Origin: Taxawa tesnikishii (nom. ined.)
Lineage: Eukaryota; Ascomycota; Dothideomycetes; Dothideales
Assembly (NCBI GenBank): GCA_030247885.1
Contig: JAPDRO010000010.1
Span: 496,001 to 560,000, forward strand
Direction of reading: 5' to 3'
DNA: 64,000 bases
Under the pieces are notes generated by a model. It was not told the DNA's origin, searched no databases, and saw only the letters and a program-made list of their open reading frames with translations. The number at the start of each line of letters is the position of its first letter. Position 1 is the first letter of the stretch. A program made the translations under genes and the position numbers. Positions 15,925 to 36,895 of this stretch are shown piece by piece.

Positions 15925-18272
15925 TCAAGAGATGACGAGCCGCGTAGTAGAATATGGAATTGCCATGTGGTATACTAAGCAAGTATTCAGAGGTCTGAAG
16001 GGGTGGGATTGAGCAGGAAGTTCCGACCGTTCTAGTGCTGCGTGTCCCGTCCGGATCCCCTCCACACGAGCGGCGTAGAGTACGTTGCTGTACACTTTTA
16101 GGGCTCTATAGAACCTCCAAGAAATTGGATCCAGCTCAGAATAATGTAAGAGCACCTCGAGGCAGTTGCCCACTCCGTGTAGGTTTTCGCTCCAGTCAGA
16201 TTCTGGAAGCCCATGGAGCAATTTCTGAAACGAATCGAACAGCAGGATAGTACAGGACCTGTAGGCTTTGAACCTAGTGGAACCGAACGTCAGCATTTGA
16301 GAAAGGAGCGGCAGACAAAGAACCTACATGCACACCCAACAGCGCCCGTTATCACCAAACTCAGAGCACAGTAAGTATGTCATACGGGCTGCCTGTTGCG
16401 CCGCAATGACACCTTCCCCGATCCATTCGCGCATTTGTGGGAGCGAAGCAGTCAAGCCTGTGTCCAACTCTTCCGGTTCCAAAAGACATTGCGAGAGCAG
16501 ACGCCGATAGAAGGTCATGACGGCATTCAGATGAAGAAGATGCACGTAGTATGTTTGCCTCCTGTGTTGTGGATTGGACTGTGTTGTAACAAGGCGAGTC
16601 AAGGTTAGCAGCTCAGGCAGCGACTCATACCACTCTTGGAGGCCCTGCCTGAACCTTCTAATTGAGTCGACTGATGAAGGCTCATAGGCGATATCATGAA
16701 GGAAAGCCGCTTTCATTTTAATGACCTTCATAATCTCAACCTCAACTGAGCCTTCAGGATCGAGGTCAATTCCGCTTTCCATATCTTCGATTGAGAAATG
16801 CTTGAAACGATGTCAGCCTGTGTCACTAGAACAATCAATGCTTGACACTTAAGCATACGTCAAACCCTTCTGACAAGTTTCTCCACCTTGAAGCATAACC
16901 TAGCGTGGGTTCCATCCATCTATTATAGTTGCATAAGCGCCGACTATCAAATGCAGTTTTGTATGAACTCACCCATTGCAGAACAGCAGCGTCCTCCAGG
17001 CCTTCTTTGCATCCGCCCACTCCGCACGATCGAACCCTCGAGGGTCATTGCTATGTAGTCCCAGGCTGTTAGCTAAGCGCACGCCGGATTCTACGACGGT
17101 TAGCATACAAGCGTTCAACAGGCAGATAAGAAGCCACGCAGAATTCTGATGATAGCTAGGATGCGAAAAGTGAGCGCACCAACATGCGCCGAAGCCACTG
17201 CCGTGTCTTTGTTGATGTTGTACAGCGCTAACAATGTGTGGACTTTCATTGCCCGAAGCGGAGCTGCATTAATGCAACTATTCAGCGTGGACTTTGCGAT
17301 GGTGTAGATTTGGATCTCCAACTCCGGCGGCATGTGCTCTCGGACATACTGCGAGCCTATAGTAGCCAAACTGCAGATCTCGCACACGAAAGCGCTAGTC
17401 AAATCTTTGGCAGGGGTATGAGTGATTAGTGCCAACGCTTTGCCCACTTGCTCCCGCGTGTAGCTATAGAACAGCGGCCCGACCGACTGAAGGAAGGCTG
17501 TGATCGCATTATGCAGAATAGGTACTCGCGAGCTAATGTAGTCAATAACGGCCGGTAGATTGATTTGTTCCAGAGAATCTGCTGGCATGTCTAACGCAGC
17601 GAGCGACGCATCATGCTGCTCAGACTCGGACATGGTTTTCCCGTATTGACTGCTTGTATCCTGGGAGAACGAACGTGGATCTCTGTAGTTAGAGTTCGCA
17701 GCGGTAAAAGTGGCTTGCGATGGTAGGAGAACACTTTTGAGTGGCGCCAGAGTGCTTGGAGAAACTTCTGCGGTGGACGTCTGCGTTTCTGTAACAGGCC
17801 CTCCATCATCGATGAGTGCTGATATCGATGAAGCTGATAAGTCTGCGCTTGACCTTATCTGATGAAAGACATCAAGTGCTTCCTTCTCTGGCAGAGTCTG
17901 CAGCATCCCCAACAGCCGTTGGAGGTCATGGAACACTCTTTGCAATGCCTCGTATCTCTGCCTCATCGCCGTTAATGGGTAAGCATCGGGAGCCGCAACA
18001 TATTCACACTCCGTATGTTTCCCGGCGCATCTTGAACAAATCGGTCTTTGCCCATCGCACTGGTAATCAAGGTCATTAGCTATGCGGAGCCACAAGTACG
18101 ACATAACAGCGAGGACAAAACTCAGATTCAGATGGAGTAGTTAGATTACCTTCATTTTCGCCTTGCGGCACTCATTGCATGCCACAATCACTTGCTGTCG
18201 CTTGGCCCTAGCTTGTGCGGGAGTAGAGGCCGGTGTCGCCGAAGTAGGCGAGATACGATCGGAAGCACTCAT
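15925..18272 (-). CDS. Zn(II)2Cys6 transcription factor with fungal-specific TF domain, six exons
   Basis: Minus-strand exons: 18272-18150, 18059-17180, 17090-16973, 16919-16859, 16800-16328 and 16273-15925. Five introns of 53-90 bp all have GT..AG ends, and the phases add up to 667 aa with no break. The N-terminus MSASDRISPTSATPASTPA leads into ACNECRKAKMKC and CDGQRPICSRC..HTEC, a Zn2Cys6 cluster (C32, C35, C42, C49, C52, C59) interrupted by intron 1 at the classic position. A Ser/Thr-rich linker follows, then the helical fungal-specific TF (middle homology) domain, including GVRLANSLGLHSNDPRGF and RAEWADAKKAWRTLLFCN. The family binds CGG-type sites as dimers and often controls metabolic genes; no target is evident here. 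Looks intact. Confidence 0.85.
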
Positions 18273-18692
18273 CGCGTATTGCGCAACTCGCTAGGTGAAC
18301 AGGGATGATGGGAAGACGGTTTTATGATGCTTCAAGACGTGAAGGCTCCGACTTGAAGCCGAGTAGAGAGAAGGGTTTTGTAGGAAGGGTGCAGTGCTGA
18401 TGAGCAGGTCCCAAGGGTAAAAGGATCTGCGTAAGAGCGTCATCGGAGCGCGGCGCGATGGCCGTCTCCCCTGCTCGCAAAGGTTTCGAGGGCACGCTTC
18501 CCTCGTACCGAGTTAGCTCCGGGAAGCCCGTCTTCCACGCTACGGCGAAACGACGTCTCTTAGGCCGGGTTATTTCCGTGTCCGTCAAGCCCCGACATGT
18601 TCAGCGGTGTCCTGTCAGTCAATCTCAGTCCCGAGGCAAAAATTGTTGCAAAATCCAGCCGAGATTCGCCACTGCTTCGTGTTCCCTACGCA
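18273..18692. other. Intergenic, promoter side of the Zn2Cys6 gene
   Basis: An 88-codon antisense ORF is present but has no recognisable motif. I see no terminal repeats or other structure. Confidence 0.35.
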
Positions 18693-18920
18693 CTAGCCGG
18701 ACGAAGAGCGCACAATCTTGTCACTTAAACCGGCAGCCTTTCTATCCCTCCTCGTGCCATGCGTCTTCGAAAACGGTCTGTGTGTATGTTGTATGTCCAT
18801 CTCCTCCTCTTCAACAGCGGCCGTCACGATATTGTTGTCGTTTTGGACGTTAAAGTCATCCAGTTGTTGCCTCTTCTTCGATGGGGACGGTGTCCTTGCA
18901 CTTCTTCGTAGCATAGCCAT
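18693..18920 (-). CDS. Short basic/acidic ORF, RRSARTPSPSKKR motif
   Basis: A 75-codon ORF begins MAMLRRSARTPSPSKKRQQ and continues with an acidic patch (AAVEEEEMD). The phrase RRSARTPSxSKKxxxLD recurs in the ORF at 63412-63876, so the two share a module. Such basic N-terminal regions are typical of fungal DUF7924 or PD-(D/E)xK-like proteins, and this could be a fragment of one. No downstream domain is visible. It may be only a scrap. Confidence 0.3.
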   Translation of the reverse strand: MAMLRRSARTPSPSKKRQQLDDFNVQNDNNIVTAAVEEEEMDIQHTHRPFSKTHGTRRDRKAAGLSDKIVRSSSG

Positions 18921-19284
18921 GTTTGGATGGATAGGCGCTTAGGGTTGCCCTAAGCAAACCCGCCGACGGTTATGGGCTGGGATTGGCATGTTGTGTTCAA
19001 ATCTAGAGAGCTCGCCCAAGTCTGGCACCATCACGAAGATTGGGCATGCCTTTGAACAACACGCAACGACATGCTTCCTCGATGTGACGCCGAAAGTCTG
19101 CAACTTGCGCAATGTAGCAGAGGAAAACAGTACTATTGACTACTCTCTATCTGCCATTGCTTCGAAGGTCGTAGTCGTGTTATGGGATCTAGGACGGGAT
19201 GACTTAACCCCGGACTAGAAGAAAACTTTTCCGCCGTCTCTTCCCGTTTCCCGTTTCCCGTTTCCTGGCTGAATCACATTGCTA
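18921..19284. repeat. Unclassified repeat segment, related to 62.4 kb
   Basis: Positions about 19170-19260 (gtgttatgggatctaggac, then a run of TTTCCCG repeats) align with about 62415-62500 (gtgtcacgagacccgggac ... cccatttccc). The match is imperfect but continues over about 85 bases. No coding frame or terminal repeat is visible. It lies directly upstream of the 750-bp repeat at 19285. Confidence 0.4.
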
Positions 19285-20040
19285 CTCGCGCCGGACGAAG
19301 AGCGCGCACCTTCTCGCAGTGTCCGCTGTGAGTAGCTACTTGCAGCGAAACCAGGATGCGCTCAGGAACGGTAATAAGTTGGCACAAGCGCGCAAGGAAG
19401 CCATGAGGACAGCCCATAACGACTAGAGAACGGCACAAGTGGACAACGGCTTCGAGAACCGAGATACGCCCTCAGCTTCCAGACTAAGACAAGCTCAAGA
19501 CAACCTCTCCGACTACTTCCATATGGACGCCTATAGTGTTATGGCCACACCAGGTCTGTGCAACAGGAATACTCGGATATCTTGATAACAACAGACGCGA
19601 TCGGACAACGCAATCAGACAACACCAACTTGACCACGCAGCTCGGTCACGATAGCGGATAGCCGCAAAACCTCCTTCCTCCCTTCCGACTCGCATACAGC
19701 GACATCTCGCCTTTGACAGCATTCGCCCTCTTCCCGACTGTTCCGCGAGCGGTACGCCGATGTCTAAGAATACCTCCGCCTACAAAGCGCTACATGGAAG
19801 GGACAAGAGCTGGAATGCGGGCGCGTAGACCAGGGCTGTTAGACGTGGGAAGCTTGTACTAACCCTCCTTTTCCTTTGTTATGGCTTGGCCTATATGCTA
19901 TGCTGTACACTCGCTCGTTTGGCATCCTGGCTGTTTGTGGCTTCATGGGTATGCGGTTCATGTGATTGATTCGACAATTGGAATGCGGTTAGTAATAGCT
20001 CTTGCTCTCTTTAGGGTCCATAGCTTCAAGAATCAACCAA
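19285..20040 (+). repeat. Unclassified dispersed repeat, copy 1
   Basis: About 750 bases align in the same orientation with 57000-57755. Shared blocks include GCCGGACGAAGAGCGC, ACGGCTTCGAGA, AACAGACGCGAT, AACTTGACCACGCAGCT, CACCTTTGACAGCA or its close variant, TTGTTATGGCT and CTGACTGTTTGTGGCTT or its close variant. Small indels and many substitutions separate the two, so the pair is old. There is no conserved ORF, and neither terminal repeats nor target duplications are visible. Class unknown. Confidence 0.6.
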
Positions 20041-20509
20041 CCAATCCAGCTAATCGCATGAAAACTTCCTTTCGCAGCCCATTAACGTTTGCTCGAGTCA
20101 AGGACGTCTAGCACGCTAACACCCTGTTGATTTCTACCAATCATCGAGACGAGGGTCCAGCCATCGTATGCGAAAAGCCCTGTTCACGTGCTTTATCGGA
20201 CGCAAAGCTCCATTAACTGTTATCTACACTTTCCAACTTGCCCGCCGTTGTATTAGAAGAGAAGCGGCACATTATTCGAGAGCACTAGTAAAGAATGCCA
20301 TAGTTTGAACGGATGCTCGGACCAAGTCAAGGTAACGACTACCGATACACCCTCGGATCAGTGATTCAGTAATAACTTAGTTCGACATGTGCAAGGAAGA
20401 GATGTCGCTAATGATCGAGATGCTAAAGCGATTTGACTGTCACAGATGTGGTCGTGGTTTCCTGCCGTTTTACTTTTCTTCCCTTTTTCCTCGTTATAAG
20501 GTTTATTTG
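20041..20509. other. Intergenic, left flank of element E
   Basis: No ORF with recognisable motifs and no repeats seen before the terminal repeat of element E. Confidence 0.35.
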
Positions 20510-22360
20510 TAACGTAAACCGCGGGGAAGCCGACCAGGTGGGGAAGCCGACCACCCAAACGCGACCCTTTCATCTTCAAATGTTCCTATCATCAACTATG
20601 AGCGCTTCTATACCTAGTAAGCCGGCTTATTCTGAAGCTGATGTCCAGGACGCTATCGCTGCTCTTAAAGAAAAGAAATACACCTCGATTCGACAGGCAG
20701 CCGGCGCATCTAAGATCCCTTACAACACTCTACGCGATCGAATAGCAGGACATAGATCACGCGCTACAGCGCATGAAACAGAGCAGATCCTCTCAAACGC
20801 GGAAGAGAAGACATTAGTACGATGGATTACACGTCTTACACGTACTAGATTCCCCGCTTCACCCGCGTTAGTCGTGCAAATGGCCGAAGAAGTCCGACGC
20901 GAACGCGTGCAGCTATCGAAGACTTCACGATCATCCCCTCGACCGATTGGCGAGAAGTGGCTCGACCGCTTCAAGACTCGTCATCCTGAGATCTCAGGCA
21001 TCTGGACTCGTCAGATCGAGAGCGCGCGCTTCAATGCGACAAGCTATGACGCCGTAAAGAGGTAGTTTGACGCGGTAACGGAGCTTTTATAGAACATAAC
21101 TACCCTCCGGAGCGCGTCTACAACATGGACGAGTCTGGCTTTGCTGTCGGAGCGAGTCAAACGTCAAGAGCATTGGTCAACATACGCGAGGCATCTAGCT
21201 GGAAGGTAGTTGCAGGCCGTCAGGAGTGGATAACGGCGATCGAGTGTGTGAGCGCTGCCGGAGAAGCTGTGCCGCCCTTGATCATCTTCAAGGCCAAACA
21301 TACTAATACAGCATGGGTACCTGCACACACGCCTCCGGACTGGAGGTTCTCGACTAGCAGCAGCGGCTGGACGTCCGATAGTCACGGTTTGCAGTGGCTG
21401 ACTACGGTTTTCGAGCCCTTGACGCGGCCTAACGACCCTACGACACGAAGAATGCTAATTATGGACGGCCATAGCAGCCATATGACAGCGAAAGTGATAG
21501 CCTTCTGCATGGAGAATGCAATCGACTTGCTCATCCTGCCGCCTCACTGTTCGCACATACTCCAGCCGCTCGATGTTGGGGTGTTTGCACCGCTAAAGCG
21601 CGCGCTAGCTTCGGAGACCGATGCCGCTTTACGAGTCGACTCTGGCCGCATATCGCGCGTAGAGTGGACGGAGATGTACATCCGCGCAAGGGCCAGAGCC
21701 CTTACTACTCGCAACATCATCGGTGGATGGCGCGGTGCAGGCCTTGTGCCGCTAAGCCCTATAACGGTGCTCGACAAGCTGCCTACGAAGCCGACCACGG
21801 CGGACTCACAACCTCACACACCTCCACAACAAGCCGATCTGGACCTTTCGCTACTACATAGCTCTCCTCCGGATGGTACCGAACTTCGTGAAGCAAATGT
21901 AGCACTTAACTCGGCAATCCAGGCTGCACAAGATCTTCCTTCTCCGGTCAAGCGCTATACAGAACGGATGACTCGCGCTTTTAAAGTGACGCATAGCGAG
22001 AATGTAACTTTACGGAAGCAGGTCAAAGAGCAGCAGGAGCTTCTTAATTCCCGAAAGTCTAGGAAGAAGGGCAAGCGAGTCGCATTGAAAGGGAAGTTCG
22101 TGTTTAGTACGCAAGAAGTGCTCGAAATAGCAAGGGAAGCGGAAGCGGACATAGCGAAGAAAAAGCCGCGCGGGCGGCCGCGCAAGCGTCCAATCGAAGA
22201 GGTAGTCGAGGAGGAGCAAGACGAAATGTCTGAAAACATGTATAGCGACTCGGATTCGGACTGTATCCTTGTTGCGACACGTAGATAGTAATTGACGCGG
22301 AAGAGGTAGCAGTTTGGTGGTCGGCTTCCCCACCTGGTCGGCTTCCCGCGGTTTACGTTA
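20510..22360 (+). mobile_element. Fot1-type transposon E
   Basis: It is flanked by TA at 20510-20511 and 22359-22360. Ends read ACGTAAACCGCGGGGAAG and inverse. Each end has two tandem copies of GGGGAAGCCGACC. The right end lacks one of the four Cs present in the left end. From 21749 onward this element is part of the left arm of a large palindrome and is repeated, inverted, as the left part of element J. Confidence 0.92.
20598..22288 (+). pseudogene. Transposase of element E, broken in the middle
   Basis: Starts MSASIPSKPAYSEADVQDAI. The N-terminal DNA-binding half is intact up to a TAG at 21063-21065, where relatives have TGG. A small deletion follows immediately near 21090. The frame resumes before NMDESGFAVG and stays open to the end, with LIMDGHSSHM, LQPLDVGVF, an AT-hook KKPRGRPRKRP in frame, and a tail SDSDSDCILVATRR. 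The TGG-to-TAG change is CpA-to-TpA on the other strand, which fits RIP. Confidence 0.88.
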
Positions 22361-22387
22361 AATAAGTTTATTAAGTATAAAAGTACT

Positions 22388-24237
22388 TAACGTAGTTCAC
22401 CACCGAGCGGCCAACCACCACCGAGTGGCCCGCCTCACCAACCTTTGCCTATTACATGTCTATTGCCTACAATGCCACCACCACGTAACGCGCAGAAGAC
22501 CTACAACGAAGGCACACTGTCCCTTGCTATCCAGGCTACCCAAGCCAAGACACCAGATACTACGAGACACGCAAGCAGAGCGTTTGACGTCCCCGAACGA
22601 CGCTAAGACGACGACGCGACGGAACCCTCTCACGACGCGATACTCAGCCCAACTGCAGGAACCTTAGTAGCCTAGAAGAGGACGCAGTTGTGCGACGCAT
22701 ACTTGAGCTAGATGCGCGAGGGATAGGCGCTACAAGGACTATGGTCGGAGAAATGGCCAATGATCTACGCGCCGCGCGTGGAAAGGGCCCGTTGGCAAGA
22801 ACTGGGTAGACAGGTTCAAGACGCGTATCGACGATATCAAGCTTCGACGCAGCCGTCCATACGATCGTCAGCGAGCCTTGAACGAAGATGCACGCGTTAT
22901 AGCGCCCTGGTTCAAGCTTGTAGAGGACACAAAGGCGAAGTACGGCATCCTGGATGAAGACACACACAACTTTGATGAGACAGGCTTCATGATGGGCGTG
23001 ATAAACGCTCATATGGTCTTCACAGGCACTGAGAAGCGGAACAATCCAAAGAAGATACAGCCGGGCAACCGGGAGTGGGTTACAATCATCCAGGGCATCT
23101 GCGCTAGTGGGTGGGCTATCCCACCCTTTATCATCTTCGGCGGCAAGGTCCTCATATCAAGCTGGTACCCAGGCCTGCCTCGTGATTGGGTTATCGAGAC
23201 TAGCCCTAACGGCTGGACGTCAAATGAGCTTGCTATCAGGTGGTTAAAGCACTTTGACGCGCATACAAAGGGGCGTACTATAGGAATGTATCGTCTACTG
23301 ATTGTGGACGGCCATGAGAGCCACAATAGTCACAGTTTCCACAAGTACTGTGAGGAACAGAAGATTGTTGTTCTCTGCATGCCTCCACACTCATCGCACC
23401 TGTTGCAGCCGCTTGACGTGGGCTGTTTTGCCCCCTGAAGCGGGCGTACTACACGGAGATTGACAGCTGGTCACGGTACTCAGTCACGCAAGTCAAGAAA
23501 GAGAGCTTCTTGCCAGCCTTTCATATCGCTTTCGACAAGGCAATCACAAAGGAGAATATCCAGGCAAGCTTCAGAGGCGCTGGGTTGGTCCCCCACGACC
23601 CAGAGCGAGTGCTATCGAAGCTTGATGTGGTGCTTCGCACGCCAACACCTCCACCGGTAGAGGCCACCCTATGGGAATCCAAAACACCAGGCAACCTGCA
23701 GGAGATAGAGGCCCAATCAACACTAGTCCGCGAGCGCATACAACAGCACAGAGAATCGCCTGTTTCACCTCTTCTGCAGGCTGTCAATTCGCTTGCCAAA
23801 GGCATAGCTATCATAGGTCATAATTCAGTGTTGCAGACCAGGGAAATCGCAGGTCTTCGCAAGGCAATAGAGGCAGCAACAGAGCAGCGCAAACGCAAGA
23901 GGAAGTATGTTCGCACAGAGGAGAGCCTTGCAGTAGGCGACGTATTGGATCTGATTGCTGAGAAGGAGGGTGGTGGTGAGGAGGCAGCTGAACAGCCTGC
24001 AAAGAGGGCGCGCGCGCAGAGGCACTGCGGGCGTTGCGGCAAGACTGGCCACAACAAGCGCACCTGCACTGCAGAAATAGTAGATCCAGGCGATAGCGAC
24101 GCTTCTGAATAGTACTGTAGTGCCTGGCAGATTGCAGCAGAGTGTAGTGGTGCGGAGGTAATAGACATGTAATAGACGCAACTTTAGTGGGGTGGGCCAC
24201 TCGGTGGTGGTTGGCCGCTCGGTGGTGAACTACGTTA
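22388..24237 (+). mobile_element. Pogo-like transposon F, left copy
   Basis: It is flanked by TA at 22388-22389 and 24236-24237. Ends start ACGTAGTTCACCACC and contain two tandem copies of CACCACCGAGYGGCC. This motif is unlike that of the GGGGWAG subfamilies, but the paired layout is the same. It lies wholly inside the left palindrome arm; an inverted twin occupies 28241-30090. Confidence 0.92.
22472..24112 (+). pseudogene. Transposase of F with C-terminal CCHC zinc knuckle
   Basis: Starts MPPPRNAQKTYNEGTLSLAI. The N-terminal helix-turn-helix region is damaged: a stop follows VPERR, and sequence is apparently missing before LEEDAVVRRILELDARGIG. The core then reads HNFDETGFMMG, LLIVDGHESHN and LQPLDVGCF, so all three catalytic Asp are present. 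A one-base deletion after CFAP (near 23435) shifts the frame before RAYYTEIDSWSRYSVTQ. The C-terminus has a basic region and a CCHC knuckle (CGRCGKTGHNKRTC), a feature seen in some fungal pogo-like transposases. Both palindrome arms carry the same defects, so these arose before the duplication or were spread by conversion. Confidence 0.88.
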
Positions 24238-24364
24238 CTTACTTTATTATATCTTAATATAAAACTTACTTCTTTATTATAAGACAGTAGGCCTTAAAGA
24301 ACTACTTAAGACGTAGAAGAACTATAAAAAGAAGAGTAAGCTCCTAAGTCTTTAATATTATAAG
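24238..24364. other. AT-rich spacer between F and MITE
   Basis: About 125 bases of strongly AT-rich DNA (tattatatcttaatataaaac). The same sequence is present inverted at 28114-28240. It looks like RIP-altered repeat DNA. Confidence 0.5.
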
Positions 24365-24534
24365 TAACGTAAACTGCGGGGAAGTTGGTCAGGCGGGGTA
24401 GTTAGTTAGTAGCCTTAACAGGGCTTAGTTCAGGCTCAAATGGCTAGCAAATAAGCCTTATTGCGCTTAGAACTGCGTAGATCAGTTAACTGACCAACTT
24501 CCCAGCCTGACCAACTTCCCCGCGGTTTACGTTA
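24365..24534. mobile_element. MITE, left-arm copy
   Basis: Ends read ACGTAAACTGCGGGG and inverse ACGTAAACCGCGGGG, with TA on both sides. The tandem motif is GGGGAAGTTGGTCAG with a weaker second copy. The interior (TAGCCTTAACAGGGC ... AATAAGCC) matches the MITE at 7388, but the terminal motif differs. No coding capacity. A truncated terminal repeat (TAACGTAAACCGCG) follows at 24538-24551. Confidence 0.85.
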
Positions 24535-24551
24535 CGTTAACGTAAACCGCG

Positions 24552-25312
24552 TAAACATCTCGACTCGAGATTTCTGTCTTCTAAGAGTAGTGTATGGACT
24601 GGAGTACTTAGCAAACGGCATAGGTGCACCCAGCACCGCAGATGGCGGCAGACATCAGAACCTCTGGTTGGTTACCGATAGCCAGAAGGCACTCCGGCGC
24701 ATAGGGACATCGCAGGCGAAAGGATCAGGTCAGTACCTGTTCAAACGGGCGCGTGAACTTATCAGCAGAATCGAGTGGAAGGATGCGACGGGCAACCTTG
24801 TATGGGTGCCATCTCATAGCGGAGTCGCCGGTAACGAGGCAGCGCACCGAGCAGCTCAAGAGATGACTGAGTCAGGGCTGCGGCCGACGCTACAGCAGCA
24901 CAAGAGACGTCGCCTCAAAACAAGTGTAGAGATCATACTGAGGCGGAGGCTGCAGCAGGAGAGAGCCGATGCGTCGTCAAGAGTAGGACCGTGGGTGGAG
25001 TAGCAAGCAAGACTGGCGGACCGGGAAACCGGCAGATGGGCCAAAGGAACGGTGGAAGCCGGATGTCAAGGCGGTGCGGGCGGTAGTGCAGTTCCTCAAG
25101 CAGACCGCCCGGTTATCCGGCCGCGAGCTTCGTGAAGGGGTTACGCAAGGAACCCCAATCGACTATTGAGTGGTGATGGGCTGAGAAGTGAGACAAGGCA
25201 GCAGAGGGTGAACGTAGAGATAACGATAGGAGGGCTCTTAAGTCTCTACAGAAGACTTCGTAGCCTGAGTAGACTAATCCAATCCAATCCAATCCAATCC
25301 AATCCAATCCAT
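24552..25312 (+). mobile_element. 5'-truncated Tad1-like LINE with RNase H and AATCC tail
   Basis: A plus-strand frame encodes an RNase H domain: LWLVTDSQKALRRIG (the TDS motif) and LVWVPSHSGVAGNEAAHRA. The last catalytic position, usually Asp in EAADRAA, is His here. RNase H after reverse transcriptase is typical of fungal Tad1/I-clade LINEs. Only the 3' end is present. The frame runs into a 3' tail of seven AATCC units (25276-25310), the kind of short tandem tail such LINEs leave. The 5' end abuts a truncated Fot1-type terminal repeat. Repeated inverted at 27166-27926. Confidence 0.75.
25276..25310. repeat. (AATCC)7 tandem repeat
   Basis: Seven perfect pentanucleotide units at the 3' end of the LINE fragment, just before element I. 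An inverted copy lies at 27168-27202. Confidence 0.95.
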
Positions 25313-25313
25313 A

Positions 25314-27164
25314 TAACGTAGTCCGCGGGGATGTGGGTCACGCGGGGTAGTGGGTCAACGAATCTCTACCCTTTCAACTCCATTAATTATCTGCGCATTG
25401 CAACCATAATACAATCAGAATCAGAGTCGCTGGGTAGGTTCTCAAATAGCTCGTCTTCCTCCTCCTCAGTTATTTCTTTCGCCTTGCACTTACGTGGCCG
25501 TCCACGAGTCTTTTCTTTGCTGTCTCCGCTTCTGCTACCTTCGCTATCTCGAGTACTTCTTGCGTACTAAACACGAACTTCCCTTTCAATGCAACTCGCT
25601 TGCCCTTTGTTCGGGCCTTTCGAGTATTGAGAAGCCTCTCCTGTTCTTCTACCTGCTTGCGTAAAGTGATAAGCTCGCTGTGCGTCGATTCAAAAGCGCG
25701 AGTCATACGCTCCGTATACCGCTTCGCCGGAGATGGAACGTCCTGGATAGCCTTTATCGTGGAATTGAGTAGCGCGTTTGCTTCACGTAGTTCAGTGCCG
25801 TCTGGCGGTGAGCTACAGAGTAGCGACAGGTCTAGATCGAGTTGCTGGGGTGGTGTATGCGGTGGTGAAGCGGCTGGAGTCGTCCTAGAAGGCAGCTTTT
25901 CAAGCACGGATATAGGGCTTAGCGGTACTAAACCAGTACCGCGCCACCCAGCGAGAATGTTGCGAGTAGTAAGCGCCCTATCCCTTGCGCGGATGCACAT
26001 CTTAGTCCATTCTACGCGCGATATGCGACCAGAATCGACACGCAAAGTAGCATTAGTCTCCGAGGCTAGCGTACGCTTTAGCGGCGCAAAGACGCTAACA
26101 TCAAGCGGTTGAAGGATATGCGAACAATAAGGTAGTAGTATCATTAAGTCAATTGCATTCTGCATATAGAACGCAATTACCTTGCCAGTAATATGGCTGC
26201 TGTGGCCGTCCATGATCAGTAGTCTCCGAGTTGTAGGGTCCTCCGGCCGTGTCAAAGGCTCGAACACGGTAGTCAGCCACTCGTAACCGTGGCTATCGGA
26301 CGTCCAGCCGCTATTGCTAGTTGAGAACCTCCAGTCCTTGGGTGTTTGGGCAGGTATCCACGCAGTGTTGGTGTGTTTCGCCTTGTAGATCAACAAGGGT
26401 GGAACAGCCAGGCCGGCAGCGCTTACGCACTCGATTGCAGTTATCCATTCTTGCCTGCTAATGATCTGCTTCCAACTACTGTCCTCACGTATGTTGACCA
26501 ATGCTCTTGATGACTGACTCGCTCCGACTGCGAAGCCGGACTCGTCCATGTTGTAAACGTGCTCCGGCGCATATTGGTTCTGTATCCACATCTCCGTCAC
26601 CGCGTCAAACCACTTCTTTGCGTTCTCGTAGCTCGTCGCTCTGAACCGTGCGCTATCAATCTGACGCGTCCAGATGCCTGCGATCTCAGGATGACGAGCC
26701 TTGAAGCGATCGAGCCAATGCTCGCCAATTGGTCGAAGAGTTAGGGCGGAAGCCTTGGAAAGCTGGACGCGTCCGCGTCGTATCTCCTCAGCCATTTGTA
26801 TGGCCAACGCAGGCGAAGCGGGGAATCCGGTACGCGTAAGACGTGTAATCCATCGTACTAACGTCTTTTCTTCCGGTATAGAAAGGAGCTGCTCATCTTG
26901 GTGCGCTATAGCGCGTGAAGTTCGTCCAGACATGCGATGCTGTAGCGTTGTGTTCGGGACCTTGAATGCGAGGGCAGCCTTACGAACTGATGGGTATTCG
27001 TTGTTATCACAGCAGAGATCACCTTCTGGACGTCCTCTTCCGTATAAGCCTGTTTACTAGGTATAGAAGTACTCATGGTGGTTGGTAGTAACGGTAGAAG
27101 ATTGGAGGTTCGCGTTGTAGTGACCCACTACCCCGCGTGACCCACATCCCCGCGGACTACGTTA
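25314..27164 (-). mobile_element. Fot1-type transposon I, spacer of the palindrome
   Basis: It is flanked by TA at 25314-25315 and 27163-27164. Ends read ACGTAGTCCGCGGGG, with tandem motif GGGGWWGTGGGTCA. The outermost 44 bases of each end are exact inverses and coincide with the inner edges of the palindrome arms. The palindrome therefore has its axis inside this element. Confidence 0.92.
25387..27076 (-). pseudogene. Transposase of element I, two frameshifts
   Basis: Starts at 27076 with MSTSIPSKQAYTEEDVQ. One base is missing near 27005 compared with element J, so the N-terminal ~25 codons are out of frame with the remainder. From MSGRTSRAI on, the frame is open through NMDESGFAVG, LLIMDGHSSHI and LQPLDVSVF. 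PPHC has become LPYC just before the last motif. At the AT-hook the frame is again displaced by -1: zero frame reads KKRLVDGHVSARRKK and stops at 25470, while the -1 frame gives TRGRPRKCKAKE and a tail SDSDSDCIMVAMRR ending near 25387. Confidence 0.88.
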
Positions 27165-27165
27165 T

Positions 27166-27926
27166 ATGGATTGGATTGGATTGGATTGGATTGGATTGGA
27201 TTAGTCTACTCAGGCTACGAAGTCTTCTGTAGAGACTTAAGAGCCCTCCTATCGTTATCTCTACGTTCACCCTCTGCTGCCTTGTCTCACTTCTCAGCCC
27301 ATCACCACTCAATAGTCGATTGGGGTTCCTTGCGTAACCCCTTCACGAAGCTCGCGGCCGGATAACCGGGCGGTCTGCTTGAGGAACTGCACTACCGCCC
27401 GCACCGCCTTGACATCCGGCTTCCACCGTTCCTTTGGCCCATCTGCCGGTTTCCCGGTCCGCCAGTCTTGCTTGCTACTCCACCCACGGTCCTACTCTTG
27501 ACGACGCATCGGCTCTCTCCTGCTGCAGCCTCCGCCTCAGTATGATCTCTACACTTGTTTTGAGGCGACGTCTCTTGTGCTGCTGTAGCGTCGGCCGCAG
27601 CCCTGACTCAGTCATCTCTTGAGCTGCTCGGTGCGCTGCCTCGTTACCGGCGACTCCGCTATGAGATGGCACCCATACAAGGTTGCCCGTCGCATCCTTC
27701 CACTCGATTCTGCTGATAAGTTCACGCGCCCGTTTGAACAGGTACTGACCTGATCCTTTCGCCTGCGATGTCCCTATGCGCCGGAGTGCCTTCTGGCTAT
27801 CGGTAACCAACCAGAGGTTCTGATGTCTGCCGCCATCTGCGGTGCTGGGTGCACCTATGCCGTTTGCTAAGTACTCCAGTCCATACACTACTCTTAGAAG
27901 ACAGAAATCTCGAGTCGAGATGTTTA
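27166..27926 (-). mobile_element. Tad1-like LINE fragment, right-arm copy
   Basis: Inverted twin of 24552-25312, including the RNase H motifs and the seven-unit tail at 27168-27202. The encoded residues are the same as in the left arm. Confidence 0.75.
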
Positions 27927-27943
27927 CGCGGTTTACGTTAACG

Positions 27944-28113
27944 TAACGTAAACCGCGGGGAAGTTGGTCAGGCTGGGAAGTTGGTCAGTTAACTGATCTA
28001 CGCAGTTCTAAGCGCAATAAGGCTTATTTGCTAGCCATTTGAGCCTGAACTAAGCCCTGTTAAGGCTACTAACTAACTACCCCGCCTGACCAACTTCCCC
28101 GCAGTTTACGTTA
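27944..28113. mobile_element. MITE, right-arm copy
   Basis: Inverted twin of the MITE at 24365-24534, with the same terminal repeats and interior. Confidence 0.85.
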
Positions 28114-28240
28114 CTTATAATATTAAAGACTTAGGAGCTTACTCTTCTTTTTATAGTTCTTCTACGTCTTAAGTAGTTCTTTAAGGCCTACTGTCTTATA
28201 ATAAAGAAGTAAGTTTTATATTAAGATATAATAAAGTAAG

Positions 28241-30090
28241 TAACGTAGTTCACCACCGAGCGGCCAACCACCACCGAGTGGCCCACCCCACTAAAGTTGC
28301 GTCTATTACATGTCTATTACCTCCGCACCACTACACTCTGCTGCAATCTGCCAGGCACTACAGTACTATTCAGAAGCGTCGCTATCGCCTGGATCTACTA
28401 TTTCTGCAGTGCAGGTGCGCTTGTTGTGGCCAGTCTTGCCGCAACGCCCGCAGTGCCTCTGCGCGCGCGCCCTCTTTGCAGGCTGTTCAGCTGCCTCCTC
28501 ACCACCACCCTCCTTCTCAGCAATCAGATCCAATACGTCGCCTACTGCAAGGCTCTCCTCTGTGCGAACATACTTCCTCTTGCGTTTGCGCTGCTCTGTT
28601 GCTGCCTCTATTGCCTTGCGAAGACCTGCGATTTCCCTGGTCTGCAACACTGAATTATGACCTATGATAGCTATGCCTTTGGCAAGCGAATTGACAGCCT
28701 GCAGAAGAGGTGAAACAGGCGATTCTCTGTGCTGTTGTATGCGCTCGCGGACTAGTGTTGATTGGGCCTCTATCTCCTGCAGGTTGCCTGGTGTTTTGGA
28801 TTCCCATAGGGTGGCCTCTACCGGTGGAGGTGTTGGCGTGCGAAGCACCACATCAAGCTTCGATAGCACTCGCTCTGGGTCGTGGGGGACCAACCCAGCG
28901 CCTCTGAAGCTTGCCTGGATATTCTCCTTTGTGATTGCCTTGTCGAAAGCGATATGAAAGGCTGGCAAGAAGCTCTCTTTCTTGACTTGCGTGACTGAGT
29001 ACCGTGACCAGCTGTCAATCTCCGTGTAGTACGCCCGCTTCAGGGGGCAAAACAGCCCACGTCAAGCGGCTGCAACAGGTGCGATGAGTGTGGAGGCATG
29101 CAGAGAACAACAATCTTCTGTTCCTCACAGTACTTGTGGAAACTGTGACTATTGTGGCTCTCATGGCCGTCCACAATCAGTAGACGATACATTCCTATAG
29201 TACGCCCCTTTGTATGCGCGTCAAAGTGCTTTAACCACCTGATAGCAAGCTCATTTGACGTCCAGCCGTTAGGGCTAGTCTCGATAACCCAATCACGAGG
29301 CAGGCCTGGGTACCAGCTTGATATGAGGACCTTGCCGCCGAAGATGATAAAGGGTGGGATAGCCCACCCACTAGCGCAGATGCCCTGGATGATTGTAACC
29401 CACTCCCGGTTGCCCGGCTGTATCTTCTTTGGATTGTTCCGCTTCTCAGTGCCTGTGAAGACCATATGAGCGTTTATCACGCCCATCATGAAGCCTGTCT
29501 CATCAAAGTTGTGTGTGTCTTCATCCAGGATGCCGTACTTCGCCTTTGTGTCCTCTACAAGCTTGAACCAGGGCGCTATAACGCGTGCATCTTCGTTCAA
29601 GGCTCGCTGACGATCGTATGGACGGCTGCGTCGAAGCTTGATATCGTCGATACGCGTCTTGAACCTGTCTACCCAGTTCTTGCCAACGGGCCCTTTCCAC
29701 GCGCGGCGCGTAGATCATTGGCCATTTCTCCGACCATAGTCCTTGTAGCGCCTATCCCTCGCGCATCTAGCTCAAGTATGCGTCGCACAACTGCGTCCTC
29801 TTCTAGGCTACTAAGGTTCCTGCAGTTGGGCTGAGTATCGCGTCGTGAGAGGGTTCCGTCGCGTCGTCGTCTTAGCGTCGTTCGGGGACGTCAAACGCTC
29901 TGCTTGCGTGTCTCGTAGTATCTGGTGTCTTGGCTTGGGTAGCCTGGATAGCAAGGGACAGTGTGCCTTCGTTGTAGGTCTTCTGCGCGTTACGTGGTGG
30001 TGGCATTGTAGGCAATAGACATGTAATAGGCAAAGGTTGGTGAGGCGGGCCACTCGGTGGTGGTTGGCCGCTCGGTGGTGAACTACGTTA
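28241..30090 (-). mobile_element. Pogo-like transposon F, right copy
   Basis: Inverted twin of 22388-24237 with identical terminal repeats and TA flanks. Confidence 0.92.
28366..30006 (-). pseudogene. Transposase of F, right-arm copy
   Basis: Same sequence and same defects as 22472-24112: damaged helix-turn-helix region, deletion after CFAP, intact Asp motifs and CCHC knuckle. Identity of the defects shows the two copies are products of one duplication or are kept alike by gene conversion. Confidence 0.88.
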
Positions 30091-30117
30091 AGTACTTTTA
30101 TACTTAATAAACTTATT

Positions 30118-31970
30118 TAACGTAAACCGCGGGGAAGCCGACCAGGTGGGGAAGCCGACCACCAAACTGCTACCTCTTCCGCGTCAATTACTATCTACGT
30201 GTCGCAACAAGGATACAGTCCGAATCCGAGTCGCTATACATGTTTTCAGACATTTCGTCTTGCTCCTCCTCGACTACCTCTTCGATTGGACGCTTGCGCG
30301 GCCGCCCGCGCGGCTTTTTCTTCGCTATGTCCGCTTCCGCTTCCCTTGCTATTTCGAGCACTTCTTGCGTACTAAACACGAACTTCCCTTTCAATGCGAC
30401 TCGCTTGCCCTTCTTCCTAGACTTTCGGGAATTAAGAAGCTCCTGCTGCTCTTTGACCTGCTTCCGTAAAGTTACATTCTCGCTATGCGTCACTTTAAAA
30501 GCGCGAGTCATCCGTTCTGTATAGCGCTTGACCGGAGAAGGAAGATCTTGTGCAGCCTGGATTGCCGAGTTAAGTGCTACATTTGCTTCACGAAGTTCGG
30601 TACCATCCGGAGGAGAGCTATGTAGTAGCGAAAGGTCCAGATCGGCTTGTTGTGGAGGTGTGTGAGGTTGTGAGTCCGCCGTGGTCGGCTTCGTAGGCAG
30701 CTTGTCGAGCACCGTTATAGGGCTTAGCGGTACTAAACCAGCACCGCGCCATCCAGCGAGGATGTTGCGAGTAGTAAGCGCCCTATCCCTCGCGCGGATA
30801 TACATCTCAGTCCATTCTACGCGCGATATGCGGCCAGAATCGACTCGCAAAGCGGCGTCGGTCTCCGAAGCTAGCGTGCGCTTAAGCGGCGCAAACACGC
30901 CAACGTCAAGCGGTTGAAGGATATGCGAACAATGAGGTGGTAGGATCATCAAGTCAATCTCATTCTGCATACAGAAGGCAATTACCTTGCCAGTAATATG
31001 GCTGCTGTGGCCGTCCATGATCAGTAATCTCCGAGTTGTGGGGTCCTCCGGCCGTGTCAAAGGCTCGAACACGGTAGTCAGCCACTCGTAACCGTGGCTA
31101 TCGGACGTCCAGCCGCTGTTACTAGTCGAGAACCTCCAGTTTGGAGGCGTATGTGCAGGTATCCATGTAGTATTCGTGTGTTTCGCCTTGTAGATCAACA
31201 AGGGTGGAACGGCCAGGCCGGCAGCGCTTACGCACTCGATTGCAGTTATCCATTCTTGCCTGCTAATGATCTGCTTCCAACTACTGTCCTCACGTATGTT
31301 GACCAATGCTCTTGATGACTGACTCGCTCCGACTGCGAAGCCGGACTCGTCCATGTTGTAAACGTGCTCCGGCGCATATTGGTTCTGTATCCACATCTCC
31401 GTTACCGCGTCAAACCACTTCTTTGCGTTCTCGTAGCTCGTCGCTCTGAACCGTGCGCTATCAATCTGACGCGTCCAGATGCCTGCGATCTCAGGATGAC
31501 GAGCCTTGAAGCGATCGAGCCAATGCTCGCCAACTGGTCGAAGAGTTAGGGCGGAAGCCTTGGAAAGCTGGACGCGTCCGCGTCGTATCTCCTCAGCCAT
31601 TTGTAGAGCCAACGCAGGCGAAGCGGGGAATCCGGTACGCGTAAGACGTGTAATCCATCGTACTAACGTCTTTTCTTCCGGTATAGAAAGGAGCTGCTCA
31701 TCTTGGTGCGCTATAGCGCGTGAAGTTCGTCCAGACATGCGATGCTGTAGCGTTGTGTTCGGGACCTTGAATGCGAGGGCAGCCTTACGAACTGATGGGT
31801 ATTCGTTGTTTTTAACAGCAGAAATGGCCTTCTGGATATCCTCTTCCGTATAAGCCTGTTTACTAGGTATAGAAGTACTCATGGTAGTTGGTAGTAACGG
31901 TAGAAGATTGGAGGTTCGCGTTGTAGTGACCCACTACCCCGCGTGACCCACATCCCCGCGGACTACGTTA
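30118..31970 (-). mobile_element. Chimeric Fot1-type transposon J (E-type left end, I-type right end)
   Basis: The left end (TA 30118-30119, then ACGTAAACCGCGGGGAAG) is the E type with GGGGAAGCCGACC motifs. The right end (inverse of ACGTAGTCCGCGGGG, TA 31969-31970) is the I type with GGGTCA-bearing motifs. The switch lies at about 30730 inside the transposase gene, exactly at the outer edge of the right palindrome arm. The terminal repeats pair only over their outer portion. Confidence 0.92.
30191..31882 (-). CDS. Intact chimeric Fot1-type transposase (563 aa)
   Basis: One uninterrupted ORF starts MSTSIPSKQAYTEEDIQKAI. It contains the helix-turn-helix (VRKAALAFKVPNTTLQHRM), the second DNA-binding part (WLDRFKARHPEIAGIW), the DD35D core (NMDESGFAVG, LLIMDGHSSHI, LQPLDVGVF), an in-frame AT-hook (KKPRGRPRKRP) and an acidic tail SDSDSDCILVATRR. 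The first ~385 residues follow element I (a few per cent different). The remainder is identical to element E. The join is seamless. The DNA-binding half is therefore I-like, while one end of its own element is E-like. Whether it can mobilise itself or only relatives cannot be told from sequence. Confidence 0.9.
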   Translation of the reverse strand: MSTSIPSKQAYTEEDIQKAISAVKNNEYPSVRKAALAFKVPNTTLQHRMSGRTSRAIAHQDEQLLSIPEEKTLVRWITRLTRTGFPASPALALQMAEEIRRGRVQLSKASALTLRPVGEHWLDRFKARHPEIAGIWTRQIDSARFRATSYENAKKWFDAVTEMWIQNQYAPEHVYNMDESGFAVGASQSSRALVNIREDSSWKQIISRQEWITAIECVSAAGLAVPPLLIYKAKHTNTTWIPAHTPPNWRFSTSNSGWTSDSHGYEWLTTVFEPLTRPEDPTTRRLLIMDGHSSHITGKVIAFCMQNEIDLMILPPHCSHILQPLDVGVFAPLKRTLASETDAALRVDSGRISRVEWTEMYIRARDRALTTRNILAGWRGAGLVPLSPITVLDKLPTKPTTADSQPHTPPQQADLDLSLLHSSPPDGTELREANVALNSAIQAAQDLPSPVKRYTERMTRAFKVTHSENVTLRKQVKEQQELLNSRKSRKKGKRVALKGKFVFSTQEVLEIAREAEADIAKKKPRGRPRKRPIEEVVEEEQDEMSENMYSDSDSDCILVATRR

Positions 31971-32152
31971 TCCTAGAAGTTGCTGTAGAAGAATAACACA
32001 TAACTTAACTGCATCGTATCTTGACTGTAGCATTTAACCCAAACTGAAAGAAACTCCTTCGATTCTTCAAAGTAAGACCGTCGACTGATAAAGAGACAAC
32101 ATAGTCGGGATTGCAACCTCAAAGGCCGTGCAAGCCAGGCCACCGACCATCA

Positions 32153-33633
32153 CTACTCTTGAGCCCAAGGCGCGAAAGCAGGCGCGCTGGTTCCATCGCA
32201 AGAATACTGAACAACGAACGGTGAGTTCTGGGTGTTGGAGTCCAGGATGACAGTGCCATCTGGCGCTGTGACAGAGAGCGAGAAAATAACGGGACCACCT
32301 TGCTGTCCGAACACGATGCGGAACGGCATGTACTGGCCTTGGACAAGGGCAATGGTGGCGCTGGCGGTGTTCCCGGGATAACTGCAGCAGACGGCGGTAG
32401 CGTCAGCATTGTCGCGCGTATAGCCTTTGTAAGCATTTTGGCCGAGGTAGAGGAAGACGATATCGTCGGCGTTGGAGGTTGTGAACGTATATGTACCGGT
32501 AACTTGTGCGAAAATCTGCAATAGACGCGTTAGCGAAAAGTCGTTCATTCTGTTTCTGATCTCAATGAGGGCAATGCCTACATAGCCGCGATGGTTGAGC
32601 ACGAAGTAGCTTGCTGGGTAGTCTTGGGCGCTTCCGTAGATAGGGACATATGAGCCGGCGGGCTCGCTGATGCCACCGACTTCGGTTGTAGTACTGTCGT
32701 AATCCGGCGTCACCTGCCAGTAGTACTCTGGTTCCATGTCGGCGATGTTGTCGCCCCATGGCTCGTTCCCGTAGTACGCAAACTGGATGCCTTGGTTGCC
32801 GCAAATCGACGGAGTAGGGCAAGAGATAACGGTTGAGCTGGGCAAAAGTCAGCATGTCTGCATTCTTGTCCCGTCACTGATCTTGACTACTCACGTCGAG
32901 GTTGTTGGGATTGTGGTGGTACCAGTAGTAGTGACCGTCGCAGCGACCTGTTAGAGACATGTGAGAAACGGCTGCTACAGGAGGTGGAGAAGAACTCACA
33001 CCAGAGTAGGTGGTCACAGTGGGGATTGCTGTGGTGCTGACATAAACGGTAGATGTCGGAGTTGGAATGCTCAAGCAGCCGCAAGCGGTAGAAATTGCAC
33101 CGCAAGCGATGTTGTGGAGTACGCCAGGGCATCCAGGGCAATTGGTAGATATACTGACTGACGCAGGGACGGCAGTTGAAGGACTCGAGCTGATGCTTGT
33201 AATGGTGCTCTTTGTGGACGCCTTCGCGCTATTGACCGGGTTCCTTGCAAAGATGTCGCGTTTGGCAGCGCTGGGAATGCACGTGGTGATGGTGGTGGAT
33301 CTGGAATCCTCAGCGTGTTATCAGACCAGGCTTTTCCCCTTATCACTCACGAGCTAGACCAAACAGTGACCGGTGTTTCTGCCGCTATATAGACCGTGGT
33401 AGTGATGGTAGGAAGAGTCGTAGTTACTGGCGAGGTGAAGGCGACAGTCTTGGTGGCAGTAGCGGTTTTGATACCGAGGAAGCTGGAACAGAAAGGGAAG
33501 CGGATGGGTAGGCATGAAGAATTGCAACAACGAAGTCCACAGCTGGACACACGTTGACTGTGCGTTCGTCCAATGGAATCGCCGAAACGAGAGAAGAGGC
33601 CAAGAGGCCCAATAGAGCGATGGAACGAGGCAT
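32153..33633 (-). pseudogene. Secreted GLEYA-domain adhesin-like protein, five exons, one frameshift
   Basis: Minus-strand exons: 33633-33351, 33300-33000, 32947-32895, 32837-32582 and 32515-32153, with GT..AG introns of 47-66 bp. The N-terminus MPRSIALLGLLASSLVSAIP is a signal peptide. A Ser/Thr-rich stalk with a Kex2-like KR site and Cys pairs (TNCPGCPG, TACGCLSIPTPTS) follows. The C-terminal ~200 residues form a GLEYA/PA14-type domain: GIQFAYYGN, YFVLNHRGY, GTYTFTTSNADDIVFLYLG and FVVQYSCDGT, as in fungal lectin-like cell-wall adhesins. In exon 1 one base is missing near 33490: YPSAS must shift frame to continue PFCSSFLGIKTATATKT, the reading supported by the paralogue at 37461. This may be a recent pseudogene or a sequence error. 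Confidence 0.75.
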
Positions 33634-34784
33634 TGGAGAATTAAGGATGGAACTATGATCCTGAGGAATAGTTTGGTTGCTGAGGTGATGAATCTGATAC
33701 CAATGCTGCCGGCAAGAGGAGTCTTTAGCATCTTTATGTCTTGACAATGCTGTAATCTCAGTTTAGGGGTCTCGTACACGCCGAATGCTTGACCGTTATT
33801 GAGAGTCGCTTGGCATCAAGCTAGGTGTTGCGACAACGGGTCGTAGTGTAGTTTTGTGGGGTTGATGCACGAACAGCGTGGAGGTAAAGGGTTGGCCCGA
33901 CAACAACAGAGCGTTGAGCTTTTGTGACTAGCTGACTGATCATCTGTACCTCCTTGAAGGTACTGCGGTCTTTACAATACCTGCGGCGAGGCTGATTCAA
34001 CAAGCCGTTGATCGTGTTAACGTCGGAGAGTCCTGCGATAGGAAAGATATCGACTTTCTTTAGGCAAAGCTGGAGCACCCTGTAGAGATCGGGAGCGGGG
34101 GAGGGCGGCATCCGGGGGCATCGCGCTAGGAGGACGTGGGATGGTCGAACACAGCTTCCGAAGGCATCATCGGGGCATGCATCTGTAGACATTGTCAGGG
34201 AAGAGAGGGTAAGGAGTTACGCAACTGTGGAAGAAGCACTAAGGGCGGCTGTCGTAGCAAAGCCGCGTAGTTGACCTGGGAGGGCCGGACATGGCCGTAT
34301 GGGAACGCTAAGATGCGCTCGGACTTTGTGTGCATACTTTTCAGCTCGAAACTAATGACACGAAGTGGATGTCAGATGCCACGAGCGTTGCATGTAGTTT
34401 CGCAATACTCTATAGGCGGAAACGTCCCCGCCTGAAAGGACGTTAACACAGCCATATGCGTGCGCAAGGGCCGAGAGGCAGTAGATAGCTCAATCAATCA
34501 ACCAACAAGTCACGGTTGGTTCCACTACATATACGGTCACCATTGAGCACTCAGCTCAACAGGAGGGCTTATATTAGGGAGGAGTAAGTAAAGAGTATTA
34601 TCCATTTAGATCGTTAAAATAAAAGCGTTTTGCGAATACAGATCGTATCTTCGCGTTTTTCGGGGATAGCGGATTGCGCCAACTTGGAGATGCAGGGGGC
34701 AGGGGGATTAGCGTGGGTCCTGGCACCCTAGTTGCGGGTACGTGAGGCTCACTCTAGTCTCTAGCTGATTCTATGCAGGTACGA
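33634..34784. other. Intergenic between adhesin gene and element M
   Basis: It contains the promoter side of the minus-strand adhesin gene. A 123-codon minus-strand ORF at 33821-34192 (MSTDACPDDAFGSCV...) has no recognisable domain and could be a short hypothetical gene or chance. Nothing else supported. Confidence 0.3.
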
Positions 34785-36895
34785 TACCGTGTCCGTGCAC
34801 TCAATGCGCGCGTTCACTCAACGCGCGCCCCACCACCTTAGTACTTGCACAAACATGAGGCTGTAGAGCCACCCACAACAACTATTATCATTAGACTTTG
34901 TCGTGGAGTAGTCATTAGATCTACACAAACAATTTGTGCTATCTATATTTACTTGGAAGCTTGATGTTGCGGCCGCGTGATGTGGTGACGGATGGGGGCT
35001 TGGGGAGCCTTAGCGGCTTCAACACCACCTACAGCATCACCAGCACGTTTTTGACGCTTGCGCTTCTGTATAGGTGCTTGTGAAGCTTTACGCTTACCCT
35101 TTTGGGGCAATTGTACAGCTTTGGCGGCGTCGCGAGCCTCCTTTTGCCGAGCGCGTTTAGCTGCTTTCTCGACCTTCTCCTTCCTCTTAACCTCTGCCGC
35201 CTCTGCCCTTGCTATACGCTTCTCCTGAGCTATTCTCTCATTGTACAGTTTTGCAGCCTTTCTGAGCTTAGCTGCTTCAGCTTTTTGAAGTTGTAGCTCT
35301 TTCTTCTCACGCTCATTAACTGTCCGGCGAACACGTGCCTCCCTAACCTTCCCTGGTGACCAGAAAACAGGGCCACTGAGGTACTCCTTGCGTTTTTGAA
35401 GATCAAGAGGCTTACCACGCTTTGAGCGCTTCTTCTTGTGAAGGAGAGCCTCTTGAAGCCCCTGATTCTCATGCGCAAGAAGGTCAACTCGCGCTGAAAG
35501 AGCGTGGATTGCTTCATTAAGCCTCCGTACATCCTTTTTGTTTTGATCTCTAACGTTCTCCTGGAGAAGCTGCCTCATTTTCCTCCAATCAGAGGCGCTT
35601 AGTATTGAGGTTGAACTCTCTCTTGACTCTTGCTGATCTGGGTTGGTGTTGCTAAACCTTTTGAGTATAGGAGAGGGATCAGGGGCCATATACCAGCGGC
35701 TCTGAAGGAGCCGAGTATTGTTGTTCCCTTGAACGAGTACTGCCAGGCCTTCCAGAATAGGGGAAAAAGTCTCCTTTCTTGATTGGAGACAGCCCCTTGC
35801 TTCTCTCAAGGAAAGCTGTGAGCTCGTTGGAGTAGGCCTGTGAGAGAGGCTTGAACAAGCATACATCAAGTGGCTGCAACGTGTGCGTTGAATGGGGAGG
35901 AAAGATGGCCAGGAGTATCTTGTGTTGATCACAACACTCAATAAAATCTGGAGTAACGTGGGATCCATGGCCGTCAAGTATCAGTAACCGGTAAGAGCGC
36001 CGCGCTTTGGTCTTGGTGAAGCGATCAAACACCTGTTCAAGCCAGCTGAGGCCAAGATCGTTGTTTGTCCAGCCTGTTAGTGATGAGCTGACAAATACCG
36101 AGTGTTCCCCTGGCTCAATTTCCTCCACCCAGCTTGACTGAATATCATTGCTAGTTGACGAAAATATGAGGCTTGGCGGTAGTGCTGATCCATCGGCGCA
36201 GACGCACGCCAGGAGGGTAATCCATTCACGTGAGCCATCTTGCATAGCTGCTCTAACCTGCCTCTTCACCCACATCTGTCTGCTGAACACCCGTTTTGAG
36301 CGGCTAGTGACACCAATCAAGAAGCCCTTCTCATCCATATTGTATGTATGCCGAGGCTCAACATTGTATTGAGCTATTTTGGAGTGTAAGAGCTTAAAAT
36401 ACAGGTTGTATTTGGCCCCTGAGTCAGCTTGATGACGATTGCGATCCATACCGGTCGTCCACTTGGAGATGAGTTGGTCGGTGTTGCGGTTCAAGAAGCG
36501 GGTAACCCAGCTCTCTGAGACAGGCTTCTTAGCCACCTTTGACGCGTACTTCTGGATAAGAGACCTTCCAGGAGGTAGACCTTGCTTTGTGAGCTCACCA
36601 ATGTGTCGTACAAGCTCTCTCTTGTTGTGGGTTGAGTTTTCGACGATTGGATGACTCGGCTGCGCGGGACTGTGAAACAGCTTGGTGCCTCCGCGTCAAA
36701 GTTGAGCGCACAACACCATGATTTTTAGCTATTGTTGTGTAGCAGAGTCTTTCTCCAGGCTTCAAAGCATCTATCTCAGCAAGCGCATCGTCAATTGGAG
36801 GCATGGGCGTGGTGTCGTGTAGTAACGAAGTTTGACGCGTGATGGGTTACCCCGCGCGTTGAGTGAACGCGCGCATTGAGTGCACGGACACGGTA
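34785..36895 (-). mobile_element. Fot1/pogo-type transposon M
   Basis: It is flanked by TA at 34785-34786 and 36894-36895. Ends read CCGTGTCCGTGCACTCAATG as in A and G, with a second tandem motif ACTCAACGCGCGC. Transposase on the minus strand. Confidence 0.9.
34949..36804 (-). pseudogene. Transposase of element M, at least two frameshifts
   Basis: Starts at 36804 (MPPIDDALAEIDALKPGERL) with helix-turn-helix YTTIAKNHGVVRSTLTRRH. A one-base shift after NPQQER (near 36610) leads out of frame. The relatives' continuation is found in the next frame and runs to SESWVTRFLNRNTDQL. The core keeps NMDEKGFLIG, LLILDGHGSHV and LQPLDVCLF. After KKGDFF (near 35765) a second shift occurs. The C-terminal Lys/Glu-rich coiled coil (KKDVRRLNEAIHALSARVD...) is open to 34949. 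It is more diverged from A and G than those are from each other, so it is an older copy of the subfamily. Confidence 0.85.

Follow-up and report, generated by a model that had tools for sequence, protein, structure and literature searches.

The window analysed here is a 64-kb stretch of contig JAPDRO010000010.1 of the ascomycete Taxawa tesnikishii (nom. ined.; assembly GCA_030247885.1, positions 496,001 to 560,000), which has 52% GC and of which one haplotype was examined. It contains a palindrome that is confirmed as real and well delimited. The arms of 3.6 kb carry no substitution, a pogo/Fot-type transposon (element I) forms the spacer, and the right arm ends within a second transposon of the same family (element J), which is a chimera. 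We lean, with slightly better than even confidence, towards an inverted duplication that arose via two transposon homologies, namely the terminal inverted repeats (TIRs) of I and subsequently an exchange between the copied part of a third family member, E, and an I-like relative, here called J*. The features on which the argument depends are the following:

21749-25357, plus strand: 3609-base left arm of the palindrome, which probably served as the source
27121-30730, minus strand: 3610-base right arm of the palindrome, probably copied from the left one
20510-22360, plus strand: element E, a complete pogo/Fot-type transposon with matching TIRs, its frame broken by stops
25314-27164, minus strand: element I, a transposon of pogo/Fot type whose 45-base TIRs are perfect and whose transposase is frameshifted
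30118-31970, minus strand: element J, a hybrid transposon with an open transposase of 563 amino acids
30716-30730, minus strand: junction 2, a 15-base block common to E, I and J and the mirror of 21749-21763, at which J switches from I-like to E sequence

By exact comparison the arms are reverse-complementary over 3.6 kb with 0 substitutions and one 1-base indel, as a preliminary description of this DNA had proposed and as the base-by-base alignment bears out. With 0/3609 substitutions the 95% upper bound of the arm divergence is 0.083%. The sole difference is located at 22348/30131 (CCC versus CCCC), within the 3' TIR of E and J, and beyond it the remaining 3010 arm bases are identical. Due to this single indel the sum of the paired coordinates shifts from 52478 at the inner edge to 52479 at the outer edge, where a uniform sum of 52478 had been given previously. 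Read in TIR orientation, four Gs are present in the 5' TIR of E and in the 3' TIR of J and three in the 3' TIR of E, which indicates that a base was lost on the E side or that a sequencing error is present.

A BLAST comparison of the window with itself returns the inverted pair 20510-25357/31970-27121 with 94.5% identity over 4855 columns (E = 0.0), which far exceeds chance. The inverted homology thus extends past 21749/30730 to where E and J end, there at about 78% (271/1240 columns differ), because E and J are members of one transposon family. The flanks past E and J are unrelated: between 17001-20509 and 31972-35500 (3.5 kb each) only matches with E-values of at least 1.5 were obtained.

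The interior of I is the spacer of the palindrome and its TIRs form the inner edges, which we refer to as junction 1. These edges, 25357 and 27121, mark where the two TIRs of I, alike at 45/45 positions, cease to be identical; the assignment of the spacer made earlier holds, with TIRs of 45 and not 44 bases. Perfect TIRs and flanks that are symmetrical as far as the TA sites of I are also what would be expected if the palindrome had existed first and I had been inserted later into a TA at its exact centre, perhaps attracted by a cruciform tip. Such an insertion would have required an exact hit at the centre of arms that, without I, were joined by almost no spacer. It would also leave junction 1 unexplained, and the hybrid nature of J would be unaffected in either case. 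We regard this order of events as improbable.

The outer edge, 21748/30731, adjoins a 15-base block in the transposase gene. A conserved block shared by E and I had been pointed out at this position; it is indeed there, and J has it too. What is new relative to the preliminary description is the hybrid nature of J. Its 3' end and 3' TIR (30118-30730) are of the E type, its 5' end and 5' TIR (30731-31970) are I-like, and J is hence a chimera with mismatched ends, an E-type 3' third and I-like 5' two-thirds. The change was located with 447 informative sites, defined as ungapped sites at which E and I are unlike and J equals one of them. Upstream of the breakpoint J equals I at 247 sites and E at 35, downstream it equals E at 164 sites and I at a single one. 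The maximum chi-square of 319 compares with 21 as the highest value of 5000 permutations, and the breakpoint lies between the informative columns 1255 and 1271. At many of the 35 upstream sites I alone deviates from the other copies, so that these sites need not be E sequence.

The TIRs of J tell the same: the 5' TIR is identical to that of I (45/45), the 3' TIR matches that of E at 44/45 positions, and with each other they agree at 30/45 only, which points to an exchange in place. Transposon ends of two kinds are best explained by an exchange after insertion. Of the two elements only E is complete, from which we infer that copying probably ran from the left arm to the right.

Near-identical arms whose sole difference falls into a homopolymer, a usual place of read errors, could also raise the suspicion of an assembly artefact. 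A plain fold-back, however, would mirror the left flank, and the right flank is instead unrelated. It would likewise not be expected to produce a second change within a 15-base shared block, a difference of about 22% upstream of that block and a reading frame in J that stays open across junction 2. An assembly error is therefore judged unlikely, and the chance of a fold-back artefact small. Still smaller is the probability we assign to alternative transposition, in which the transposase links ends that belong to separate copies or to sister chromatids, as reported for maize Ac/Ds in the accessible parts of PMC3744419 and PMC8225341. It would agree with the position of junction 1 at transposon ends, but junction 2 lies inside the transposase gene and not at an end, and a homologous exchange would be required regardless.

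Each arm comprises terminal E-type sequence (612 bases in the left and 613 in the right arm), a further transposon, K, a miniature inverted-repeat transposable element (MITE)-like element, unassigned sequence, an AATCC tract and one TIR of I. The last 612 bases of E (21749-22360) lie outermost in the left arm; the DDE_1 domain of E was found by Pfam at 21125-22285. In the left arm the further components are:

22388-24237, plus strand: element K, pogo-type, 1850 bases, mirrored in the right arm
24365-24534, no strand assigned: MITE-like element of 170 bases with E/I-type TIRs, mirrored in the right arm
25276-25310, plus strand: (AATCC)7 tract adjoining I, with its mirror (GGATT)7 at 27168-27202

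The TIRs of K resemble each other for roughly the initial 80 bases, and its transposase is split into two open reading frame (ORF) pieces, of which only the first contains DDE_1. The AATCC tract has seven units in each arm. For the ORF at 24494-25000 Pfam gave no match at 0.001; an RNase H-like impression gained by eye was not used.

The block with K, the MITE-like element and the AATCC tract is called S in the following. Our proposal, which is the simplest route we see, starts from an ancestral order of left flank, E (forward), S, I (reverse), possibly further DNA, J* (reverse) and right flank. A DNA end or a replication fork in I would have folded back or switched template via the identical 45-base TIRs, which would have predated the event, and S and then the 3' part of E would have been copied in reverse. 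The copied E would now have had the same orientation as J*, and a switch of synthesis or recombination at the conserved transposase block could have followed. This exchange would have restored the right flank and the original direction and would have left the hybrid J, with any DNA between I and J* presumably lost. The flanks past E and J are unrelated, so that a change of flank accompanied the exchange in J. All this may have taken place in a single episode, and an inversion between E and J* with subsequent recombination of the TIRs is a possible two-step route to the same product. In favour of the proposal, both steps exist in published models. Origin-dependent inverted-repeat amplification (ODIRA) and a fold-back model of tandem inverted duplication are treated in the accessible part of PMC4689423. 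That of PMC10766186 describes repeats of opposite orientation that an inverted duplication turns into direct repeats, which then recombine so that the intervening segment is lost.

The preliminary description had suggested two template switches, the first at the TIRs of I and the second at homology between E and I. The junctions at the TIRs of I and in an E-type transposase agree with that. A second switch onto I itself is nevertheless disfavoured, as the 5' part of J, if it stemmed from I in the same event, should match I as closely as the arms match each other. The 5' part of J differs from I in 59/1240 columns against 0/3609 substitutions between the arms (Fisher p 4e-36). Even the closest stretch differs in 17/804 columns (p 2e-13 against the arms), and in 7/720 if its densest bin is left out (p 3e-6); since alignment columns are not independent, these p values serve as a guide only. 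The second partner was thus probably an I-like relative, J*, and not I, unless the event is old and the arms were homogenised by conversion.

The latter possibility is an explanation of its own, which we consider doubtful. An old inverted duplication, for which I itself may have been the original second partner, would have been kept identical by gene conversion from arm to arm. I and the 5' part of J would have diverged since then, and the conversion would end where E and J are too unlike. This would account for arms with 0 substitutions beside the 59/1240 differences between I and J, whose patchiness suggests that conversion among copies happens here. Homogenisation of inverted-repeat arms by template switching is also described, for short repeats, in the accessible part of PMC8604942. 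The differences between I and J are of mixed age, however, as shown by 17/804 in the closest stretch versus 30/360 in columns 896-1255, so that extra overwriting would still be required. J* is favoured over an old event with conversion since these differences are not of one age and the change of flank needs an exchange that swaps flanks.

Three points nevertheless weigh against our proposal. The differences between I and J are unevenly spread, with 0 to 17 per 80-column bin upstream of the breakpoint, which implies that other exchanges among copies shaped I or J and that the history may be more complex. No near-identical full-length match to the 5' part of J was found among the copies in the window, so that J* was not found there. 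From one haplotype, moreover, a recent event and ongoing conversion, between which the preliminary description had not decided, look alike.

According to Pfam, DNA transposons with DDE_1 transposases are abundant in the window. The family under study is represented by five full-length copies (C, D, E, I and J) and two fragments (49818-50183 and 56400-56734). In three alignment segments the pairwise identity among the five copies is 71-87%, with the exceptions of I/J (98% in the 5' segment and 90% in the middle segment) and E/J (98% in the 3' segment, end columns counted). The two TIRs of one element match each other at 44/45 positions in C and 45/45 in both D and I, and in 43/47 columns in E, the ends of which were compared with a two-base offset. 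The elements D, I and J have TA rather than TAA as their target site; that of E is ambiguous. The elements C and D (11744-15453) are arranged head to tail and have one TA in common, with the end of C at 13595 and the start of D at 13594; one of them was therefore inserted at the extreme end of the other.

The 5' parts of I (25314-27164) and J (30118-31970) form a patchwork in which near-identical stretches alternate with dense clusters of differences (bins from columns 96 and 816), a pattern that suggests repeated conversion among copies. The middle segment contains 42 columns at which I and J differ; written from J to I, 22 of these are changes of C to T or G to A and 10 are the reverse, an excess that may reflect decay of I.

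Repeat-induced point mutation (RIP) was considered as a source of the divergence among the copies and rejected, as the RIP indices of C, D, E, I and J are about 1 (product 0.99-1.12, substrate 0.93-0.99) and the arms are free of substitutions. The latter also means that a linked, near-identical duplication shows no trace of RIP. This bears either on the recency of the event or on whether the host has a RIP defence.

Further transposons and ORFs surround the palindrome. A second pogo-type element (39424-41562) has relatives at 7555-9709 (86%) and 34784-36895 (about 66%) and directly adjoins a third pogo-type element with 54-base TIRs (41561-43920). Its open transposase P0003 (39581-41473, 630 amino acids) has VGGH at the second catalytic position where others have DGH, and may for that reason be inactive despite the open frame. 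To the right of the palindrome, among transposons, an ORF with a GLEYA domain (32153-32845, Pfam) and a threonine-rich ORF of 542 amino acids without Pfam match (37461-39089) are located. The GLEYA domain and the type of transposon are what a filamentous fungus would be expected to carry. Neither tRNA genes nor tandem TTAGGG of at least two units, looked for as a sign of a telomere position, were found in the 64-kb window. A search of viral contigs for relatives of the J transposase gave 20 pattern-matching stretches, of which 0/20 were confirmed.

The features of the elements resemble those of the Fot family of pogo transposons. This family is characterized in the accessible part of PMC7386202 by a DD35D motif, TIRs of 40-60 bases and TAA as the commonest target site, with TA in some clades. 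In the J transposase, too, 35 residues separate the second and the third D. Most Fot elements are reported with TAA, as against the TA of D, I and J, and J has two unlike TIRs. A partial literature search brought up no Fot element built in this way, from which absence from print is not claimed.

An inverted copy beside its source, a junction 1 at an inverted repeat and a homologous second junction to other sequence place the palindrome in the class of inverted-repeat duplications; it adds one more case to a type of rearrangement already known and does not establish a new type. With the fold-back duplications and ODIRA of yeast, as far as covered by the accessible part of PMC4689423, it shares the inverted copy beside the source, the junction at presumably pre-existing inverted repeats and the second junction that returns to the original sequence. 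Those systems use short, close repeats; here 45-base TIRs about 1.76 kb apart and a block of transposase homology are involved. The inverted triplication typical of ODIRA was not seen, as S is present in two copies only in the window; later loss of a third copy is possible. The hybrid J has its counterpart in the single hybrid repeat that is left when repeats made direct recombine, as the accessible part of PMC10766186 relates for human copy-number variants. The repeats of the present case are instead kilobase-scale fungal-type DNA transposons of one family, and the arms are intact.

DNA-transposon transposase and TIR sequence within an inverted duplication are also known from Mu killer of maize (accessible part of PMC3440606). 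By analogy the palindrome might be imagined as a natural hairpin-RNA locus. A read-through transcript would then form a 3.6-kb double-stranded stem with K, the MITE-like element and the E-type transposase tail, and would silence these transposons in trans, so that the locus would be the fungal equivalent of Mu killer and would be retained for that effect. We give this idea very little credence. Compared with these systems the inverted duplication described here is unusually readable, as both junctions lie in identifiable transposon homology and a hybrid element with mismatched TIRs hints at which arm is the copy. It illustrates how insertions of a single transposon family that lie close together can give rise to inverted duplications and to transposases of hybrid origin.
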